This document shows, in pieces, positions 23,717-34,420 of a stretch of DNA of 64,000 nucleotides. The DNA is from Rhizobiales bacterium TNE-4. GTDB taxonomy: Bacteria > Pseudomonadota > Alphaproteobacteria > Rhizobiales > Beijerinckiaceae. Made by a program: the position numbers and the translations under genes. The notes under the pieces were generated by a model. It saw only the letters and a program-made list of their open reading frames with translations. It had not been told where the DNA came from and made no database searches. The stretch lies in contig JAHRCV010000005.1 of NCBI GenBank assembly GCA_019083985.1, positions 62,001 through 126,000 of the forward strand, given 5' to 3'. The stretch's first letter is position 1, and every line of letters starts with the position of its first letter.

Positions 23717-24121
23717 TCACGCGGCGTCCTCGGCCAGAAGATGGGCAATCGCCGCCCGTGTCTGGGCGACTTGGGCATGCAACTCGGTGACGGCCTCAAG
23801 CCATTCACCTTCCGCCACATTCTCCGGCAAGCCCGCGATCATCGCCGCCGAAAGTGCGACGCCCTTGGCCGCAACCGCCAGAGCCGAACCCTCGAGCGCA
23901 TGGGCGGCAGCACGGCGGCTCGTCTGATCGGCTGCTTCGCGTAATCGTCTGAGAGCGAGGGCGGAATGGTCGAAGAACAGTGCTAAGAGCTCGCGAGAGA
24001 GCGTTTCATCGCCTGACGTAAGGTCATGCAGGCGTTTACGGTCGATGATATCGGCTGATGGGACATCCCATAGGGGCTGGCCACGCAGGGCCGCCGCTCT
24101 CGCCATGAGACTGTCATCCAT
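23717..24121 (-). CDS. Hpt-domain phosphotransfer protein
   Basis: A 134-residue protein built of one histidine phosphotransfer domain. The phospho-accepting His74 lies in AHALEGSALAV, close to the consensus AHxLKGSA (the Lys is replaced by Glu). ATG 24121 has AAGGA eight bases before it. The upstream longer frame begins inside the intergenic region and is discarded. It is transcribed away from the giant coiled-coil gene across a 371-base space. Cognate kinase and response regulator are not in the window. Confidence 0.82.
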   Translation of the reverse strand: MDDSLMARAAALRGQPLWDVPSADIIDRKRLHDLTSGDETLSRELLALFFDHSALALRRLREAADQTSRRAAAHALEGSALAVAAKGVALSAAMIAGLPENVAEGEWLEAVTELHAQVAQTRAAIAHLLAEDAA

Positions 24122-24492
24122 TGCTGTGTCCTTTTGCAGCAGCGGGCCCGTGCGCGAGCCCAGCTGTAGAACGCAAGCCTGCAACAAAGGGTTTCAAGAT
24201 GGAGAATTTTCGACCATAGTGCGGCGTCGCTTGCGGTTTCCGTCACGGAATAGCCACGGTGTTCGGCCTTTTGGCCGGCGTCCACCACGGAAACCAGGGA
24301 TCAAGCGGCAAACCCAGTGGCGTTAACGACGATTCAAGGTGATTGGCCCGCTCGGGTTTTCAGGCCCAGCCCCGGCCGGTACACTGCATTGGTTAATCAA
24401 AGCTTGCGCGAGCCCTGTCCGGGCGAACGCAACGAAGTGCCGTTCGGGCCTTTTCGGGCGGCACGGTGAGAGTTCAAAGGCACGGCATCCAG
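24122..24492. promoter_or_regulatory. divergent intergenic region between the Hpt gene and the giant gene
   Basis: 371 bases without a credible gene, the only long divergent spacer in this part of the window. Both flanking genes must take their promoters from it. No clear -35/-10 pair, operator or riboswitch can be named by eye. A GTG at 24466 could extend the giant gene by nine residues. Confidence 0.5.
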
Positions 24493-27400
24493 ATGGCGAC
24501 CCAGAAAAAAGCGACCGATCCGACCGAAATGGCCCTTTCGGCCATTGAGGAGGCGCTGAACCTGACGTCTGCGACGGGAACGACGGCACAAAAGCCAGCG
24601 CCCGTCCCCGTTTCCGAAACGCCGAAGCCACTCGACGAGCCATTGCTGCGTGGCCGTACCGAGCCGCAAACCGAGCCGACGCCTGAAAAGAAAGCCGAAA
24701 AGCCTGTCGAAAAGGCGGCCGACAAGCCTGCACCGACGGTTGCCACCCCGAAAGCCGAGATGCCGCGCACGGAAACGACGCGCCCGGTGAAGGAGAGCGC
24801 GACCTACGAGAGCGCTGCCGCAGCGCCGCGCATTGAAGATCAGGGCCTGCCCTTTACGCCGCCGGTCCCGGAGAAGCAGAAGCTTGAACCTGGCCGCCCG
24901 GCCAATGACGACCGCCGTGCCGTTGGCGAAATCCTCCAATCGATGAAAGTGCGCCCCGTCGCGTGGCCGACTGGCGCTGCGCTCGCGGCGTCCGGCGCCT
25001 GGATCGTCCTGATCCTCGCCTTTGCTTATGGCCAGTGGGGCGATGCGCTCCTCAGCCTTGAAGGTATCCGCAATGGCATCGGCCTGGCAGCCGCTGGTCT
25101 TCTGGCTGGCGTTGCCCTCTTCCCGCCAGCCGCCTTCTTCGTCCTCGCCTCGCTCTATGTCCGCTCGCTCGAAATGCGTCAGGTCTCGAGCACCATGGCG
25201 CAGGTCGCCGTGCGTCTTGCTGAGCCGGAAAACGTCGCGCTCGACGCCGTCGTCACCTTGTCACACGCCATCCGTCGCGAAGTGGCGGCGATGGGCGATG
25301 GCATTGAACGTGCGGTGGCCCGCACGAGCGAACTCGAAACCATCGTTCACTCGGAAATTGCGTCGCTTGAACGCGCCTATGGCGAAAACGAAATCCGCGT
25401 GCGCGGCCTGATCGAAGAATTGATCAACCAGCGCGAAGCGATCGTCTCAAACAGCGAGCGCGTCCGCGCAGCGATCGCTGGCGTGCATGAAAATCTCAAT
25501 GTCGATCTCGACAATGCAACGCAGCGTCTCTCCACCATCGTCAGCGCCGCGGGCGAAAAGATCACCTATTCGCTCGATGCCAAGACCTCGGAAATCACCG
25601 AAGTCCTCGGCAAGTCTGGCGAATCCATGGTGCGTGAAATCACCGCGAGCGGTGGCCAACTCATTGCGCGTCTTGATACGACCACGGAAGCCGTCAGCAG
25701 CCGCTTGACGGAAGCGACTGGCACAGTCACGGCCGCGCTCACGGGCAAAGTCTCCGATATCACGCAGGTTCTGTCGCAGACCGGCGAACGCCTCGCCGAA
25801 GAAGTCGCGCAGAGCGGCCGCCTGATGCGCACGACGCTCGAAGAAACGGCGACGAGCTTCAATACAAGCGTGGCGGAGAACGCCGAAAAAGTTCGCGCCT
25901 CCTTCTCAAGCGAAGCCAATGCGCTCACCGCACGTCTGGCCGAGGCCAGCGAAAAGCTTCGCGATGACATGGCAGGTCAGGGTGCGAAACTCGAAGATTC
26001 ACTGTCCGATGCTGGTTACCGCATCAATAGCCTGCTTGAAGAGCGCGTGCGCGAAGCCCGCACCATGCTGCAGTCGAGCGGCAACGACCTCGCCCATTCG
26101 CTCGACCGTTACACTGAAACTTTTGAACAGCGCCTCACGGGTGCCAGCGAAATCTTTGAACAGCGCCTTTCGGGTGCGACGCAAGCTGCAACGACGGCGA
26201 TGGCCAGCGAAGTCGATCGCATCAGCGGCACCATGGGCACCACGGCAGCGCGCTTCTCGACAGTGATCGAACAGCGCGGCAGCGAAATCGACACGATGCT
26301 GGGCGAGCATGTGGGCACGATCGAAGGCAAGCTTGCCGACCGCGCGCGCCAGCTCGACACCGTGCTCGGCCAGCGTGCTGGCCAGATCAACGCGACGTTC
26401 GAACAGCGCCTCAGCCAGATGGATTCGACGCTTGATGACCGCGCCACGCGGATCGAAAGCGCCCTCACCGACCGCATCGAAGCGCTCCGCGCGACGCTTG
26501 CCGAACGTGCTGGCCAGATCGAATTCGCGATCGGTGGTCGCGTACAGGAACTCGATCGCTCGCTCACGCATCACAGCACCGCGCTCGAATCCATCATGGA
26601 CAGCCGCGTCGATACGCTGCGCGAAGCGCTCGGTGGCTGGCGTGGCGAACTCGATCAGCTGATGAGCGGTCGCCTCACCGCCCTCAACGACACGTTCACG
26701 AACCGCACCTCCGAACTCGAACGCCAGATCGGCGAACGCGTGGCGGCACTCGACGTGCTCCTGCGCTCAAATGGCGCCTCGCTCGACGAGACATTGTCGA
26801 GCCGCATCGCCCTTCTGCGCGAGACCATCATCGAGCGTGGCGGCGAACTCAACGACTCCTTCTCGCGTCACCTGCAGGCGCTTGAAGAAACCGTTCTCAG
26901 CCGCGGTTCCGAACTCGTCGACCGGATCACGGGCGATACGCGTGCCTTCTCGCGCGTTGTGGAAGACCGCTTGGGCGAGGTCGAGTTCCTGCTCCGCACG
27001 CAAGGCGGCGCGCTTGCCGAAACGATTGGCGTCCGTGCTCGCGAAGCGGCCGATCTCATCGGCGGCAAGATCACCGAATTCGAAAACCGCACCACCACCA
27101 AGACCGACGAGATCACCGGCAAGCTCGACTACGTTTTCGAACGCATCGATCTCGGCCTCGACCAGCGCGCCCGCAGCGTCTCCGAGACGCTCGCGACCCG
27201 CGCGCTCGATATTGCCGCGACTCTCACCAATGGTTCGGAACAGGTCGCCAATGCGATCACCCAGCGTGCCGCAGAGTTCGAGCGCTTGATGCTCGAGCGC
27301 ACGCAGGGCTTTGGCGAAGTGATGACGGCGAAGGCCGATGCCATTCTCCGCCGCACCGAAGAAGTCTCGACGGCGATCACATCGCATGCCGAGACACTCG

Positions 27401-29352
27401 AAACCCGCACCGCCTCGATCACCGCCACACTTGGCCAGCGCGTGGCTGAAATCACGACGCTGTTCGACGAACGCGGCCAGGCGCTGGCGGAAACGCTGCG
27501 TCAGCAGAGCGAAGAAACGAACGCCACCCTTGCCCGCACGGGCGATACCGCGGCACGGGAGCTCATTGGCGTCAGCGAAATCGTTCTCCGCACGCTCGAA
27601 ACCCGCTCGGGCGCGATCGTCGAGGGCCTGCGCCGTCAGGGCGAAGAGATCACGAGCGCGGCTGAGCAGACATCGGCCTTGCTGCGTGAAGCAGTCGACA
27701 GCAGCGCAGGTCGCTCGCTCTCCGCTCTTGTCACGACGCATGACACGCTGTCGGGCGAAATGGGCACCCTGCTCACCCGCCTTGAAGAAACCGGCCGCAC
27801 GCTTGGCGCCATCGTCGAAAGCACGGGCCAGAATCTGCGTGACATCGAAACCGGCCTGTCGAGCTCGGCACAAGCGCTCGGCACATCGGCGGGCGTCATC
27901 GCTGAACGCGCAGGCGAAGCCGCCGAATTGCTCGCCGCCCAAAGCCGCGTCTTCAACGAAACCGCCAACGAAGTTCTCGGCCGCACCAGCGGGCTCGTCG
28001 CTCGTATGGATGAAGGCGCCCGCAGCATGGAACGCGTCTCGCACGAACATGCGCAGGTGCTCGAAGGCGCTGCCGCGCGGATGGAAACGGTGGAAGACCG
28101 CATCGCCTCGGGTCTCATCGAACGTCGCGACACGCTGGAAGGCGTCCTGGCGGCGCTCGAACAGCGTGCATCCGATCTCGAACGCATCGGCCAAGGTTTT
28201 GCCCACGCCGTGGGCGATCAACTGCGTGTTGCCGAAACGCGTGCCCGTGACATTGGCGTCATCCTCGCTCAAGCGAGCTCTGAGACGACGACGGCATTGA
28301 CCTCGCATTACGATGCGATCCGCGCCGCCAGCACGAGCGAGCGCGAACAGACGGCCGCGGCGCTATCGGCTGCCTATGAAGCGGCGACGAGCGAAATGGC
28401 CTCTCTCTTTGCCGCTGCCAATGATCGCTTCTCGCGCCTGGTCGGTGACATGCGCACCATGTCGGCCGCCATCCGCGACGAACTTGACATGACACGCGCG
28501 GAACTGAGCCGTGGCTTGGTCGAACTGCCGCGCGAAACACAGGAAACAACGCAGGCGATGCGCCGTGTCGTCTCCGACCAGATCAAGGCGCTCGGCGAAA
28601 TCACCGACATCGTGGCCCGCTCAGGCCGTATCGTCGAAGTACCGGCGGCACCCGCCCCTGCCCCTGCACCGGCGCCGGTCCGCCCGGAACCGCGTATCGA
28701 AACCCCGCGCGTCGACGCTCCGCGTGTGGCACCGCAGCCAGTCGCGCCCGCTCCGGCCCGTCCGATTGTTGCTCCCCGCCCGGCAGCGCCTGCTGCTGAA
28801 GCGCCGGCGCGCCCAGTCGCACCGCGTCCCGCCCCGCCGGCTCCGGCCCCCGCGCCGGCCCGCCCGAAGGTGGAAGAGCGTTATGCGCCGCAGCCTGCAC
28901 AATCGGCCCGTCAGGACCGTGGTCCGGGTTGGCTGAGCGACCTCCTCGCTCGCGCCTCGCGTGATGAGGAAGAGGCCGCTCCGGCGCCGGCTCCGGCCAA
29001 ACAGGCCCAATCGGGCGATTTCCTCACCAATCTGTCCGACACGATTGGCACGCTCGTGATGCATGACGATCTGGTCGACGCATGGGATGCTTATCTGCGT
29101 GGCGAAGAAACACCCTTCAGCCGTCCGCTCTATTCCCATCGCGGTGTAGAAACGTTCGAGGAGATCCGCCGCCGCTATGAGCGTGAAGCGCCGTTCCGCG
29201 GCATGATCGACGCCTATATCGCGAAGTTCGAAGAGCTCCTGCGCGAAGTCGCCCCGCGCGATCGCGATGCGGCGCTCTCCCGCTCGATCCTCGCCTCCGA
29301 TGAAGGCAAGGTCTACACGCTGCTCGCCCACGCTTCGGGCCGCATCAGCTAA
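24493..29352 (+). CDS. giant membrane-anchored hendecad-repeat protein, GPR/RgsE-like polar growth factor
   Basis: A 1,619-residue protein. Order: conserved start with ATDPTEMALSAIEEALNL, a Pro/Lys/Glu-rich segment (to about 150), two membrane helices (about 161-180 and 196-222), then a helical region to about 1380. A Pro/Ala-rich linker (about 1382-1475) follows, and a conserved C-terminal domain (GWLSDLL, LVDAWDAYLRGEETPFSRPLY, FEEIRRRYE). Residues 324-972 form 59 consecutive 11-residue repeats. This plan matches the Growth Pole Ring protein of Agrobacterium and RgsE of Sinorhizobium, apolipoprotein-like proteins of about 2,000 residues needed for polar growth; this one is shorter. ATG 24493 is preferred to GTG 24466. 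The homology is recalled, not computed. Confidence 0.8.
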   Translation: MATQKKATDPTEMALSAIEEALNLTSATGTTAQKPAPVPVSETPKPLDEPLLRGRTEPQTEPTPEKKAEKPVEKAADKPAPTVATPKAEMPRTETTRPVKESATYESAAAAPRIEDQGLPFTPPVPEKQKLEPGRPANDDRRAVGEILQSMKVRPVAWPTGAALAASGAWIVLILAFAYGQWGDALLSLEGIRNGIGLAAAGLLAGVALFPPAAFFVLASLYVRSLEMRQVSSTMAQVAVRLAEPENVALDAVVTLSHAIRREVAAMGDGIERAVARTSELETIVHSEIASLERAYGENEIRVRGLIEELINQREAIVSNSERVRAAIAGVHENLNVDLDNATQRLSTIVSAAGEKITYSLDAKTSEITEVLGKSGESMVREITASGGQLIARLDTTTEAVSSRLTEATGTVTAALTGKVSDITQVLSQTGERLAEEVAQSGRLMRTTLEETATSFNTSVAENAEKVRASFSSEANALTARLAEASEKLRDDMAGQGAKLEDSLSDAGYRINSLLEERVREARTMLQSSGNDLAHSLDRYTETFEQRLTGASEIFEQRLSGATQAATTAMASEVDRISGTMGTTAARFSTVIEQRGSEIDTMLGEHVGTIEGKLADRARQLDTVLGQRAGQINATFEQRLSQMDSTLDDRATRIESALTDRIEALRATLAERAGQIEFAIGGRVQELDRSLTHHSTALESIMDSRVDTLREALGGWRGELDQLMSGRLTALNDTFTNRTSELERQIGERVAALDVLLRSNGASLDETLSSRIALLRETIIERGGELNDSFSRHLQALEETVLSRGSELVDRITGDTRAFSRVVEDRLGEVEFLLRTQGGALAETIGVRAREAADLIGGKITEFENRTTTKTDEITGKLDYVFERIDLGLDQRARSVSETLATRALDIAATLTNGSEQVANAITQRAAEFERLMLERTQGFGEVMTAKADAILRRTEEVSTAITSHAETLETRTASITATLGQRVAEITTLFDERGQALAETLRQQSEETNATLARTGDTAARELIGVSEIVLRTLETRSGAIVEGLRRQGEEITSAAEQTSALLREAVDSSAGRSLSALVTTHDTLSGEMGTLLTRLEETGRTLGAIVESTGQNLRDIETGLSSSAQALGTSAGVIAERAGEAAELLAAQSRVFNETANEVLGRTSGLVARMDEGARSMERVSHEHAQVLEGAAARMETVEDRIASGLIERRDTLEGVLAALEQRASDLERIGQGFAHAVGDQLRVAETRARDIGVILAQASSETTTALTSHYDAIRAASTSEREQTAAALSAAYEAATSEMASLFAAANDRFSRLVGDMRTMSAAIRDELDMTRAELSRGLVELPRETQETTQAMRRVVSDQIKALGEITDIVARSGRIVEVPAAPAPAPAPAPVRPEPRIETPRVDAPRVAPQPVAPAPARPIVAPRPAAPAAEAPARPVAPRPAPPAPAPAPARPKVEERYAPQPAQSARQDRGPGWLSDLLARASRDEEEAAPAPAPAKQAQSGDFLTNLSDTIGTLVMHDDLVDAWDAYLRGEETPFSRPLYSHRGVETFEEIRRRYEREAPFRGMIDAYIAKFEELLREVAPRDRDAALSRSILASDEGKVYTLLAHASGRIS
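25462..27408 (+). repeat. coding array of 59 uninterrupted hendecad (11-residue) repeats
   Basis: Cut into 11-codon units from Val324 (25462), the protein shows a hydrophobic residue at position 1 and usually at position 5 of every unit, with Arg very common at position 8 in the middle of the array. No insertion or deletion occurs until a three-residue step (TAS) after residue 972, beyond which four more units follow. Sample units: LDTVLGQRAGQ, INATFEQRLSQ, IESALTDRIEA, LERQIGERVAA. DNA copies are diverged, so this is an old protein repeat. Confidence 0.9.
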
Positions 29353-29423: not shown

Positions 29424-29996
29424 TCAGCCGCGCGCGTTGGCCCAGCGCACCACTTGGCCGAGCACATCCTGCAACGCACGATCAAGCGCGGAGGCCACCT
29501 GCCCGGCATTGTCGCTGCCGACCGGTTCCGTCGCGCGGAACACTTGCGCCGCAATGATCCGGCTTGTCGTCGCATCGACGAGCCGCGCCGAATATTCGAC
29601 CACGACCTCGCCGCGCCCGCCATCAAGATGGAAAGCGCGCAATTCGCCAATCAAAGCACGGTCGCCATTGATCCCGGTGCCGGCCCGGCCCACCGCGCGG
29701 CCGGTATTCTCAAAAGCTTGGACGAGGCGGAACTGGACGAGGCGCGGCAGCCGGTCTGACCATTGCGCGCCGCCGATAAAGCTCACCGTATTATCGGCGC
29801 CCTTGACCAGGATCCGCTCAGAGTCGAGCTGCTGTAGCGCCGAAGGCTCCGCGACGACCAATTGCGAACGTCCCGGTGAGGCCCGCCCGACGCGATCAGG
29901 GATCGTGAGGTCAAACGTCGTCGGCGCCGGACCGCCGCTGCATGCCGCCGTCAAACCCGCAAGGACAACAATCGAAACCGTTCTCAAACGCCTCAA
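29424..29996 (-). CDS. ABC-type transport auxiliary lipoprotein (PqiC/YmbA-like)
   Basis: A 190-residue lipoprotein: basic start, hydrophobic core, lipobox LTAAC at residues 15-19. The mature part matches the auxiliary lipoprotein family that accompanies MCE-type lipid transporters (TFDLTIPD, VVAEPSALQQLDSERILV, WSDRLPRLVQFRLVQAFE). It is the last gene of an MlaE-MlaF-MlaD-lipoprotein operon, 44 bases after the MCE gene. It presumably sits at the inner leaflet of the outer membrane or in the periplasm and helps lipid transfer across the envelope. Confidence 0.87.
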   Translation of the reverse strand: MRRLRTVSIVVLAGLTAACSGGPAPTTFDLTIPDRVGRASPGRSQLVVAEPSALQQLDSERILVKGADNTVSFIGGAQWSDRLPRLVQFRLVQAFENTGRAVGRAGTGINGDRALIGELRAFHLDGGRGEVVVEYSARLVDATTSRIIAAQVFRATEPVGSDNAGQVASALDRALQDVLGQVVRWANARG

Positions 29997-30040
29997 GGCA
30001 AATACCCTTCCCCGGCCAGACGAATCGTCACACCAGCCCC

Positions 30041-31360
30041 TTACCGGCTTCTATTGTATTCTGGGATACCCGGCCTGCTCCCGAAAAGGATCTGCTGCGG
30101 ATTCCTGTTGAAATCCGACAGGGTCCGGTTGATCTCGCTTAGGGTACGGCGGGCTTCGGCGGTCAACACGTCGAGATCGCGCGTTCCCGTCCCAGCCACG
30201 CGGTTGAAGCTCGCCGCCATTTCGGCCGTCCGCTTGTCGAGGTTCTCCGCGAGCTTGCGGATTGATTGCGCCGTGTCGGCGAAGCTGGCCGCCGCCTGCT
30301 TGCCATCATCCGAGCCAAGGAACCCCTGCAGGCTGCTCATCAAGCCCTCCACCTTATCGGCGGCACGGTTGAGCTTGGCCGTCAGCTCATTGGTGTTTCT
30401 GAGGATCTGGTCGGTATTCTGCGTGTTGTTGCCGAGCGCGGTCGAGAAGCGCTCGAAATTATCGACTGCCTTGCCGATCTTGGCAGGGTCGATGGCCTTG
30501 GCCACGCCACCCACATCGGCGAGCACGCCATCGAGCTTCACGGTCGCGTCATTCAACCTTTTGGCAAGCACTGACACGTCCTTCATGAACACTTTGATGT
30601 CATCGCGCCCATCCGCCACCGTGCTTGAGATCTGCTGAAGATCAGACACGATCTTCGACACGTCGGCCGGATTCACCGCGCGCACAATCGTATCGAGATT
30701 GTTTGACAGTTTTTCCATCGTCACAGCGAGCGCGGAAATCTTGTCGGCCGCATTGCCTGTCGACGACAGGAATTTGCCCACGCCATCGGAGTTCTCGGCC
30801 AAGGATTTCGAGAACATTTCGACATTGCGCACAGTGGCATTGATCGCGCCGGCATTGACCGCAAACAGGCGGTCAGCCTGCGTCAGGACGTCTTCCGCCT
30901 TCTTCGCCAAGCGCTGCGCACTTTCAAGCAGATCCTGGAAGTCGGAGCGGTCGGCATAGATGATCGGCGGCTTGCCCGGATCATTGCTGACCAATGGCTG
31001 CGCGTTTGGCCCACCGCCCGACAATTGGACGGACGCGACACCGGTCAGCCCCTGAAATTCGAGACGGGCTTTAGTGTCGGTATTCATCGGCGTCGAGGAA
31101 TCGACCGTCGTCACGGCCACCACACGGCTCGGATCATCCGGCATCAAAGAAAGCGACGTGACCTCACCGACTTTGAGGCCATTATACATCACGAGCGAGC
31201 CCTTCGAGAGGCCGGACACGGACCCCGTGAAAACGATGCGATAATTCGTCGTGTTGCCGCGCCCATCCGAGCCGCGGAACCAATATACGAACGCAAAGGC
31301 AGCCGCGATCACAAGAAGCGTGAAGCTTCCGATGGCGACATAATGGGCACGCGTTTCCAT
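30041..31360 (-). CDS. MlaD-family MCE-domain lipid-binding protein
   Basis: A 439-residue protein: one N-terminal membrane anchor (about 8-28), an MCE domain (about 38-118; YRIVFTGSVSGLSKGSLVMYNGLKVGEV) and a long helical tail with repeated Asn/Asp/Leu patterns. MCE proteins form hexameric rings or tubes that carry phospholipids through the periplasm. It lies ten bases after the ATPase gene in the same operon. The long helical extension is usual for alphaproteobacterial and chloroplast (TGD2-like) members and longer than E. coli MlaD. Confidence 0.9.
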   Translation of the reverse strand: METRAHYVAIGSFTLLVIAAAFAFVYWFRGSDGRGNTTNYRIVFTGSVSGLSKGSLVMYNGLKVGEVTSLSLMPDDPSRVVAVTTVDSSTPMNTDTKARLEFQGLTGVASVQLSGGGPNAQPLVSNDPGKPPIIYADRSDFQDLLESAQRLAKKAEDVLTQADRLFAVNAGAINATVRNVEMFSKSLAENSDGVGKFLSSTGNAADKISALAVTMEKLSNNLDTIVRAVNPADVSKIVSDLQQISSTVADGRDDIKVFMKDVSVLAKRLNDATVKLDGVLADVGGVAKAIDPAKIGKAVDNFERFSTALGNNTQNTDQILRNTNELTAKLNRAADKVEGLMSSLQGFLGSDDGKQAAASFADTAQSIRKLAENLDKRTAEMAASFNRVAGTGTRDLDVLTAEARRTLSEINRTLSDFNRNPQQILFGSRPGIPEYNRSR

Positions 31361-31370
31361 GGTCCCGTCC

Positions 31371-32186
31371 TCACAATTTGGCGTTCATCGCCTCGGCGCG
31401 CTTGCCGTGGAAATAGGTTTTGACCCAAGGCTGTTCCGACGCAAGCATATCCTTGATCGTGCCTTGCGCGACGATCTTGCCTTGCCCGAGCGCAGCAATG
31501 CGGTCGCAGACTGAATAGAGCGAGCCGAGATCATGGGTGACCATGAACACGGTGAGCCCCAGTGTTTTCTGGAGCGTCGCAATCAGATCATCGAAATCGC
31601 CGGCACCGATCGGGTCGAGACCCGACGTCGGCTCGTCCAGAAAGAGAATATCGGGATCGAGTGCCAGAGCGCGCGCGAGCGCCACACGCTTGATCATGCC
31701 GCCGGAGAGTTCAGACGGCAGCTTGTCCCCAACGTCAGGGGTAAGCCCGACCATCTGGAATTTCATCGCCGCCAGCTCATCCATCAGATTCTGGCTCAGC
31801 TTGAGATATTCGCGCATCGGCACTTGCACGTTCTGTCGGCAATTCAGCGACGAGAACAAAGCGCCTTGCTGGAACAACACACCCCAACGCCGTTCAACGG
31901 CGCGATGCTGCACATCGTTGAGCGTATCGAGATCGTGACCGAAAACTTCAATCGTCCCGGCGCTCTTTTTGTTCAGCCCGAGAATGGTGCGGGTCAGGAC
32001 GGATTTGCCTGCGCCAGATGGCCCAATGAAGCCGAGAATTTCACCGCGATAAACATCAAGGCTAAGCCCGTTCAGGATCGTCTTGTCACCGAACGCGACC
32101 ACAATATCCTTCGCCGCGATGATTGCATCGCGTGCGGGCGGCGCCTCTGTCGGCACATCGGTGGGCGGGGACACAACCTGATCCAT
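31371..32186 (-). CDS. MlaF-like ABC transporter ATP-binding protein
   Basis: A 271-residue ABC ATPase with Walker A GPSGAGKS, signature LSGGMIKR, Walker B ILFLDEP and an H-loop MVTHDLGS. The signature variant GGMIKR is characteristic of MlaF/TGD3-type lipid transport ATPases. It powers lipid movement with the permease encoded immediately before it (gap of seven bases) and the MCE protein after it. A Pro-rich N-terminal stretch of about 20 residues precedes the domain. Confidence 0.92.
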   Translation of the reverse strand: MDQVVSPPTDVPTEAPPARDAIIAAKDIVVAFGDKTILNGLSLDVYRGEILGFIGPSGAGKSVLTRTILGLNKKSAGTIEVFGHDLDTLNDVQHRAVERRWGVLFQQGALFSSLNCRQNVQVPMREYLKLSQNLMDELAAMKFQMVGLTPDVGDKLPSELSGGMIKRVALARALALDPDILFLDEPTSGLDPIGAGDFDDLIATLQKTLGLTVFMVTHDLGSLYSVCDRIAALGQGKIVAQGTIKDMLASEQPWVKTYFHGKRAEAMNAKL

Positions 32187-32193
32187 TCCGCCC

Positions 32194-33393
32194 TCAATAC
32201 TTGATCGCGGCGAAGAACATGGCGAAAAGCCCGTCCACCACGATCACCATAAAAATGGATTTCACCACCGACGATGTGACCTGCCGGCCGAGGGATTCCG
32301 CCGAACCCTTCACCGCCATGCCTTCGAGCGAGGCGATGATGCCGATGACGAGCGCCATGAAAGGCGCTTTGATCAGGCCGACCAGGAAGGTGTTGAGCGC
32401 AATGGCCCCTTGCAGACGCGACAGGAAAACATCGGCGGAAATACCGCCATAAATCATCGCCACGACGGCCCCGCCCAGAAGGGCCGCCATATCGGCGACA
32501 AAGGTCAGAAGCGGCAGGCCGATCATCAAAGCAAGAACGCGCGGAATGACGAGGATTTCGACGGGGTCGAGACCCATCACGCGCAGCGCGTCGATTTCCT
32601 CGCGCATTTTCATCGAGCCGATTTCAGCCGTGAAGGCCGAACCCGAGCGGCCCGCGACCATGATCGACGTCAGCAATACGCCCAATTCGCGCAGGACGAG
32701 AATGCCGATCAAATCGACCACGAAAGGCGTCGCGCCAAAACGCTGCAATTGGAAGATGCCTTGCTGGGCGATGATGCAGCCAACCAGAAACGAGATCAGC
32801 ACAATGATCGGCACGCCGCGCAGCGCAACCTGATCAAGCTGAAAAATGATGGGCGTCAGGCGGATGCGCCAGGGCTGCAGCAAAAGCCGACCAAGTGCGG
32901 ATACGATGGCGCCCAGATAGGACAAGCCCCCGACCATGTCCCGGCCTGACCCGACGACGTTCTCGCCAATGCTGGCCAGCGCGAGGATGACAGCCGGACC
33001 ATCGGTCTTCTCATGCGGCGCATCGGCATCGTGCGAGGCGACTTCCTGCATCAGGATGTGCGCTTTCTCGCTCACTTGCGCGAAAACGATCTGATCCTTC
33101 GCCGCATTCTGCTGCAATCGGACAAGCACCAAGGCGCCAAGCGTATCGAGGCGCGGAATGCCACTGCAATCGAGCGTGAGCTGACCTTGCGCGGGAATGC
33201 GCGCCGCAATTGCGCCGCGTGCGTCTTCGACCGCTTGCGAATGGTCCGACGTCCAATACCCTGACAGCCGCAATACACCATCGCCCGCCGCCTCGACCTT
33301 GGGCGGCGCGGTTTCGAGCGCAGTAAAGGCAGGCGCTTGAGCCACTTGCGAAAGTCCGGTTACGGGCGGTTGAGACCCGCCTTTGAGCGTCAT
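32194..33393 (-). CDS. MlaE-family permease with fused N-terminal STAS domain
   Basis: A protein of about 399 residues. The first part is a STAS domain (about 35-125; LTLDCSGIPRLDTLGALVLVRL), normally supplied by the separate protein MlaB. The second is an MlaE permease with five or so helices, including GVPIIVLISFLVGCIIAQQG and the conserved LREELGVLLT-like segment followed by EIGSMKMREEIDALRVMGLDP. It forms the membrane part of the lipid transporter. ATG 33393 is favoured; the open frame extends to 33459, which would run into the divergent epimerase gene. Confidence 0.9.
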   Translation of the reverse strand: MTLKGGSQPPVTGLSQVAQAPAFTALETAPPKVEAAGDGVLRLSGYWTSDHSQAVEDARGAIAARIPAQGQLTLDCSGIPRLDTLGALVLVRLQQNAAKDQIVFAQVSEKAHILMQEVASHDADAPHEKTDGPAVILALASIGENVVGSGRDMVGGLSYLGAIVSALGRLLLQPWRIRLTPIIFQLDQVALRGVPIIVLISFLVGCIIAQQGIFQLQRFGATPFVVDLIGILVLRELGVLLTSIMVAGRSGSAFTAEIGSMKMREEIDALRVMGLDPVEILVIPRVLALMIGLPLLTFVADMAALLGGAVVAMIYGGISADVFLSRLQGAIALNTFLVGLIKAPFMALVIGIIASLEGMAVKGSAESLGRQVTSSVVKSIFMVIVVDGLFAMFFAAIKY

Positions 33394-33430
33394 AACGTCC
33401 GAATCAGGCGGGGTCGAGACGGAGGCAAGG

Positions 33431-34420
33431 ATGACAAGGCGGACAATCGGGACGGCCATTCAATCTTGGCCCGTGGCTGGAAGTTTCACCATCGCGCGCG
33501 GTTCGCGCACAGAGGCGGTCGTCGTCTCGGTGACGATCGAAGACGACGGCTTTCACGGCCATGGCGAGTGCACGCCCTATGCCCGCTATGGCGAGACGCC
33601 GCAGACCGTGCTGGCGCAGATCGAAACCGTGGTCGACCTGATCGAACAAGGTGGCACCCGCGCGGATCTCATCGGTGCGCTCAAGGCGGGCGCGGCACGC
33701 AACGCGCTGGATTGCGCGCTATGGGATCTCGAAGCCAAAAAGACGGGCGTGCCGGCCCATGTGCTCGCCGGGATCGACCGGCTCTCGCCCGTCACCACCG
33801 CCTTCACGATCTCGCTCGGTACACCGGCCAAGATGGCGGCTGATGCCGCCGCGGCCGCCGACCGCCCGATCCTGAAAATCAAACTCGGTGGCGGCACAGA
33901 TGATACGGCGCGGATCGCCGCCGTTCGCGACGCGGTGCCCGATGCAACCCTGATCGTGGATGCCAATGAGGGATGGACGCCCGACGACCTCATCCGCAAT
34001 CTCGATGCCTGCCTCGATGCCGGGGTGGATTGCGTAGAACAACCCCTCCCCGCCGCGTCCGACGATGCGCTGTTCGGGCTCGACCATAAAGTGCCGCTCT
34101 GTGCTGATGAAAGTGCTCATGGCATCGCAGAGCTCGATCGGCTCGCCGCGCTTTACGACATGATCAACATCAAGCTGGACAAGACTGGCGGGCTCACCGC
34201 CGCACTGCAGCTTGTTGAAGCCGCAAAAGCGCATGAATTGGGCATCATGGTCGGGTGCATGCTGGGCTCATCGCTCGCGATGGCACCGGCGTTCCTGCTG
34301 ACGCCGCAAGCCCGCTTCGTCGATCTTGATGCGCCGCTCTTGCTTGCTAAGGATCGCGAGCCCGGCATGCATTACGAGGGCAGCATCGTCTATCCGCCGT
34401 CGCGCGCACTCTGGGGCTGA
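33431..34420 (+). CDS. dgcA: L-Ala-D/L-Glu (dipeptide) epimerase, enolase superfamily
   Basis: A 329-residue enolase-superfamily protein with the acid/base lysine in LKIKLGG, metal ligands in VDANEGW (Asp), EQPL (Glu) and CADES (Asp), and the second catalytic lysine in INIKLDKTGG. These define the muconate-lactonising subgroup that epimerises L-Ala-D/L-Glu, a dipeptide released from peptidoglycan. ATG 33431 follows GGAGGCAAG directly and is chosen over 33383. Cytoplasmic; fits murein peptide recycling. Its last 31 bases overlap the end of the convergent MFS gene. Confidence 0.88.
   Translation: MTRRTIGTAIQSWPVAGSFTIARGSRTEAVVVSVTIEDDGFHGHGECTPYARYGETPQTVLAQIETVVDLIEQGGTRADLIGALKAGAARNALDCALWDLEAKKTGVPAHVLAGIDRLSPVTTAFTISLGTPAKMAADAAAAADRPILKIKLGGGTDDTARIAAVRDAVPDATLIVDANEGWTPDDLIRNLDACLDAGVDCVEQPLPAASDDALFGLDHKVPLCADESAHGIAELDRLAALYDMINIKLDKTGGLTAALQLVEAAKAHELGIMVGCMLGSSLAMAPAFLLTPQARFVDLDAPLLLAKDREPGMHYEGSIVYPPSRALWG

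Follow-up and report, generated by a model that had tools for sequence, protein, structure and literature searches.

The proteins GPR and RgsE are central to the one-pole growth of Rhizobiales, and the working model of their action is built on an apolipoprotein label. The group is characterised by a position at the growth pole, or a ring there, and by rounded cells upon loss of the protein. GPR is reportedly a lipid organiser at the pole, an idea resting on the match of its helical region to Pfam PF01442. GPR of A. tumefaciens (Atu1348, 2115 aa) and RgsE of S. meliloti (SMc00190) each have two N-terminal membrane helices, a very long helical region that matches PF01442, a Pro-rich linker and a conserved C-terminal domain, and RgsE, with a reported size of 2089 aa, has been called a homologue of A. 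tumefaciens GPR (PMC7327166). Deletion of parts of the array or of the C-terminal 221 residues breaks function and polar foci in A. tumefaciens (PMC8262873), results that fit either a rod or a lipid model. The extended helical region of GPR, of 1,700 residues, was estimated at 600 nm (PMC8262873); at 0.148 nm per residue, an alpha helix with this number of residues would span about 250 nm. Similarity between Caulobacter TipN and GPR has also been stated (PMC8546619). Hendecad coiled coils are a further point of reference, since the tetrabrachion stalk and the families surveyed by Martinez-Goikoetxea and Lupas (2023) are, like the array described here, mainly 11-residue with heptads interspersed.

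We analysed a stretch of 64,000 nucleotides from Rhizobiales bacterium TNE-4, hereafter the window. An open reading frame at 24493-29352 on the plus strand encodes a protein of 1619 aa (P0001), which was assigned to the GPR/RgsE family by homology to S. meliloti RgsE. A GTG start 27 nt upstream of the ATG would give 1628 aa, and the ATG was preferred because relatives share a conserved MATxKKxxDPxEAALSAIEEALNL start. In an alignment of 49 proteins, the conserved N-terminal motif MATQKKATDPTEMALSAIEEALNL (24493-24564, plus strand, as are all features of the protein) is followed by a Pro-rich disordered stretch. Two membrane helices are predicted at residues of about 161-185 and 198-225 (24973-25167) from hydrophobicity and a low-confidence model, and this hairpin is also present in relatives. 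The segment after the second helix, residues 226-330 (25168-25482), is the best-conserved part of the N-terminal third in the same alignment. The 59 in-register hendecads, supported by Fourier analysis and a hidden Markov model (HMM), occupy residues 324-972 (25462-27408), and the helix goes on without proline through residues 973-1345 with mixed hendecad and heptad spacing (27409-28527), residues 246-1345 making up 1,100 Pro-free residues. A Pro/Ala-rich linker, recognised by alignment and composition (28528-28998), leads to a conserved C-terminal helical domain, residues 1503-1619 (28999-29349), defined from relatives and AlphaFold2. A sequence-only reading of this DNA had proposed two membrane helices before the array and a conserved domain after it, and both were confirmed by hydrophobicity, alignment and models.

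Aligned with S. meliloti RgsE, the protein showed 36% identity at its N end (339 columns, E 1.3e-47) and 46% at its C end (151 columns, E 2e-37). S. meliloti record CP090106.1 yields a 2089-aa protein whose N and C ends match the window protein; since this protein has the size of RgsE, and RgsE is a GPR homologue, the window protein is, judged from sequence, a GPR/RgsE orthologue. The membership suggested earlier is thus borne out by both ends, together with the common gene neighbourhood described below. Note that CP090106.1, whose title reads S. meliloti pSymB, has a length of 3.7 Mb and contains rgsE together with cytochrome bc1 genes, so that the label is probably an error for the chromosome; its annotation calls the rgsE product "kinesin". 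A search of the window's own genome with the C-terminal domain gave one match, the C-terminal 135 residues were matched in 57 of 60 relatives, and of the 289 class genomes sampled, 107 carried the domain. Genomes with the family code of the window's genome include one whose protein is identical to that of a Salinarimonas MAG and a close relative of Microvirga, which makes Beijerinckiaceae in the GTDB sense the most likely family. The window protein is an ordinary-sized new member of a known family, although shorter than GPR and RgsE, and it has one clean 59-unit array instead of several segments; the array of RgsE consists of hendecads with heptad shifts (period 3.654).

The nearest gene on the upstream side of the GPR gene, divergent and Hpt-like with an HxL-E/K-G motif (23717-24187, minus strand), was recognised by a profile match, the window copy giving no Pfam match at E 0.001. 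An Hpt-like gene was upstream and divergent in 104 of the 118 order loci with enough flank, and directly upstream in 11 of 57 loci outside the order. Hpt is annotated at the corresponding place in Sphingomonas parapaucimobilis and in S. meliloti, where rgsE has this divergent neighbour in the same gene order as in the window. By virtue of the Hpt-like neighbour, a phosphorelay link to the polar scaffold is possible. In 112 order loci a ferredoxin gene likewise lay upstream in divergent orientation. Directly downstream lies a convergent Mla-type phospholipid transport operon (29424-33459, minus strand) that encodes an ABC_trans_aux lipoprotein, MlaD, MlaF and MlaE; MlaD lies no more than 5 kb from the GPR gene at 82 of the 128 order loci and at 10 of 57 others.

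The periodicity of the array was tested by Fourier analysis of hydrophobicity over residues 324-972 (59 x 11) against 200 shuffles. A single dominant period of 3.667 was obtained with a power of 100.9, compared with a mean maximum of 7.1 and a highest value of 12.7 in the shuffles. Harmonics at 5.5 and 11 accompanied this period, and acidic residues shared it. Periods 3.5 and 7 were empty, so that the 11-residue pattern dominates and no heptad peak is seen in this segment. An independent phase tracker, an HMM trained on the family, returned one unbroken in-phase segment at residues 315-965 (59.2 units), followed by a phase shift and 12.3 further units; past residue 973, the dominant period of 3.608 is the value expected for hendecads mixed with heptads. 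The 59-unit array of the sequence-only reading is therefore confirmed by both methods, with a weak fit of the last two units (951-972), in which position 5 is Thr and Ala. Its claim of a hydrophobic residue at position 1 and mostly at 5, with Arg at 8 in the middle, held as well: ILVMFWY occupies position 1 in 95% of the 59 units (100% counting Ala) and position 5 in 95%, and Arg occupies position 8 in 22 of 59. As a single helix, the array would be about 96 nm long (0.148 nm per residue), and its 649 residues include no Pro and no Cys and carry a net charge of -31. The units are old. Their mean identity is 0.15, they share a mean of 12 of 33 nt, and no 22-residue super-period was detected, unit similarity at lag 2 (0.175) equalling that at lag 1 (0.172). 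The youngest visible pair, FEQRLTGASEI/FEQRLSGATQA (26122-26187, plus strand; 24 of 33 nt identical), is the most alike of adjacent units, and the alignment with a congener lacks one unit here.

We consider it probable that the protein is a hendecad coiled-coil rod, anchored in the membrane and serving as a scaffold of the growth pole, its phase being selected and its unit number drifting. Specifically, the hairpin of two membrane helices would anchor the protein in the inner membrane with both ends cytoplasmic, and behind this anchor some 1,100 residues would make up an almost unbroken alpha helix about 160 nm long, the 59 units forming its pure 11-residue-repeat stretch. The helix would pair with a second or a few copies in a hendecad coiled coil, right-handed to almost straight, and so give a presumably stiff rod bearing the conserved C-terminal domain via the flexible Pro-rich linker. 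Such a rod may collect, as scaffold or tether, the machinery that builds wall and membrane at the growing pole; polar localisation and a scaffold role would be expected from the orthologues, GPR of A. tumefaciens and RgsE of S. meliloti. Selection would act on the helical phase, holding the interaction stripe to a single face, and unit number would drift through gain or loss of whole 11-residue, sometimes 7-residue, pieces.

In 24 pairs of relatives, with no protein used in two pairs, positional identity peaked at hendecad positions 5 (0.938), 8 (0.936) and 1 (0.913), which are the core positions e, h and a; the remaining core position, d, stood at 0.858. Identity was lowest at positions 3 and 10 (about 0.75; 0.745-0.773 for positions 3, 7 and 10) and intermediate to high at the flanking positions 2 and 9 (0.88-0.89), so that conservation forms a smooth wave round the helix. 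Position 8 is mostly polar, and its Arg was retained in 97%. In coiled coils generally, polar residues conserved within the core typify specific pairing of helices, and the pattern as a whole points to a protein-protein interface. Between the window protein and its congener, position 8 was identical in 58 of 58 aligned units, above the hydrophobic positions. AlphaFold2 modelled residues 160-1345, as a single chain, as helix nearly throughout, the longest being 444 residues, with a mean pLDDT of 55, at which the helix neither proves a rod nor shows pairing. Hendecads have been described as hard targets for AlphaFold (PMC11676326).

The alternative that survives best is that the array is an apolipoprotein-like amphipathic helix on or around lipid, and that the protein organises polar membrane lipids; an apolipoprotein-like membrane-lying helix had also been offered by the sequence-only reading. 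PF01442 matches with 182.5 bits over eight stretches against a cut-off of 90, among PDB sequences apolipoprotein A-IV matches best (E 4e-10), and the gene is convergent to the Mla operon in the 82 of 128 order loci given above. However, the PF01442 score survives a column shuffle, in which residues are permuted within each of the 11 columns and unit order is lost but the rhythm kept: three arrays shuffled in this way scored 142-152 bits, compared with 167 for the original array and the same cut-off of 90, and one full shuffle and one register-broken array gave no PF01442 match. The "apolipoprotein" label is thus largely a periodicity effect. Note that a true apolipoprotein ancestor with the same unit would also pass the column shuffle, so that kinship is not disproved by this control; the score itself gives no evidence for such kinship. 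The array shares 11-residue amphipathic periodicity with the apolipoprotein A1/A4/E family but differs from it in several respects. Two of these speak against kinship: it has no proline punctuation, with none in 649 residues against six in the 136 residues of the matched A-IV segment, and it has no 22-residue unit. Its strongly hydrophobic positions are only 2 of 11, making a narrower stripe. It is also acidic, the net charge amounting to about -0.9 per 18 residues, which argues against lying on an anionic membrane, and arrays were acidic in 117 of 117 measured (-1.8 to -8.6 per 100 residues). The lipid-binding discriminant was 0.04 for the array and 0.32 for the A-IV segment, and the polar position at the stripe edge is conserved as strongly as the hydrophobic ones. 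Core-position conservation that includes the polar Arg, together with the acidic array, speaks more for a coiled-coil rod than for a helix lying on the membrane, and a lipid-lying array is, on the charge, narrow stripe, lack of proline, polar core and shuffle control, unlikely. The shuffle control and the conservation make the choice between lipid organiser and rigid scaffold a directly testable question.

For the coiled-coil rod, the length and phase of the array were compared across the order. The earlier suggestion of strong selection on both was upheld for phase and not for length. Among 120 family members of the order (910-2994 aa), the longest unbroken array ran from 7.5 to 150 units with a median of 54, so that 59 units are ordinary and unit number is not conserved; array length differs even between congeners, by +11 and -22 residues within the array for the window protein and its congener. 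On the other hand, in-array gaps in alignments of the 25 closest pairs were multiples of 11 in 31 of 38 cases, the remainder being 7, 18 (11+7) or aligner-split 44s (4+40, 29+15), whereas indels outside the arrays were mostly 1-8 residues. In pairs above 75% identity, whose alignment is least ambiguous, all in-array events were multiples of 11 when split gaps were joined. Coiled coils combine 3- and 4-residue steps so as to give heptad-sized phase shifts. In line with this, 843 of 848 phase shifts between segments within single proteins (99.4%) were one to four inserted heptads and the mirror shift, a 15-residue step, was nearly absent (4 against 400), in a comparison where the HMM tracker and the aligner both tend to keep hydrophobic positions together and position 1 resembles position 5, a bias that leaves the asymmetry of +4 and +7 shifts unexplained. 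Helical phase is tightly kept while unit number drifts between species.

The quantised indels could partly come from repeat-mediated slippage instead of selection, though the units share little DNA identity. In a stronger form, the repeat would be upheld mainly by mutation, through tandem duplication of 33-bp units with little structural selection. The young duplication at 26122-26187 and the occurrence of indels as whole units speak for this, but the units are old and dissimilar in DNA, core positions are clearly constrained, and 7- and 18-residue steps, not expected from in-register unit exchange, occur; we regard a mainly mutational origin as very unlikely. A molecular ruler, in which a selected unit number fixes a distance at the pole and which the sequence-only reading had raised with a "perhaps", could draw on the exact register across 649 residues and on the near-constant helical regions of five homologues from several family groups outside the order, but it is rejected on the unit counts and the congener differences given above, a ruler by absolute length being largely refuted in the order and the idea as a whole most improbable.

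The membrane hairpin, the Pro-poor helix and the C-terminal domain are also present in alphaproteobacterial homologues from outside the order, several of which match the N-terminal part too. Periods were read for 59 homologues outside the order and 125 proteins inside it. Outside, 50 of 59 lay at 3.54-3.59 and seven at 3.61-3.64; inside, 118 of 125 lay at 3.64-3.68. In the outside-order examples examined, autocorrelation peaked at 25 and 50 and harmonics of 25 residues were present, so that most of these homologues have a 25-residue repeat with a period of about 3.57 and not an 11-residue one. Indels of 25 were seen in a few close pairs of such proteins. From coiled-coil geometry, the supercoil would be right-handed at a period of 3.667 and slightly left-handed at 3.57. 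A tree of the C-terminal domain, built on few columns and with weak branches, largely separates the two period groups, with a few short proteins from the order falling between them. It is conceivable, though we hold it only tentatively and as rather doubtful, that the family switched repeat length and supercoil sense between orders, from 25 to 11 in the polar-growing Rhizobiales, helping the scaffold to organise the growth pole rather than mark it. If it stands, the order-specific repeat length would be an unusual case of a family changing its coiled-coil periodicity as a whole. In five 25-residue-repeat homologues from several families the helical regions measure 1119-1121 residues, in contrast to the window's order, where lengths drift, and helical-region length may be constrained among them.

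In the open-licence literature searched, we found no earlier account of family-wide phase quantisation or of the apolipoprotein score as a product of rhythm, and no description of arrays of up to 150 units or of an order-specific repeat length. No hendecad description of GPR was found either, which, coming from open-licence papers only, is weak evidence of novelty; the hendecad survey of Martinez-Goikoetxea and Lupas (2023) may already cover the GPR family or phase quantisation.

In addition, kinship with ZorA of the Zorya defence system was considered and rejected. A ZorA profile matched weakly in the tail region (40.6 bits, E 1e-10), far under the NCBIfam cut-off of 190, and a column-shuffled array kept 29.8 of 43 bits, so that the likeness to the ZorA tail reflects composition and periodicity, not membership. 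The C-terminal domain gave a confident six-helix AlphaFold2 model (pLDDT 83.7, pTM 0.72) with no PDB match at Foldseek E ≤ 0.001; the best VIA-align Z of 5.7 (1tm9) has little meaning for a small helical domain. Finally, the disordered Pro-rich linker contains a conserved motif, GWLSDLLARAS (28927-28959, plus strand), that many relatives carry and that, from its sequence, looks like a docking motif.
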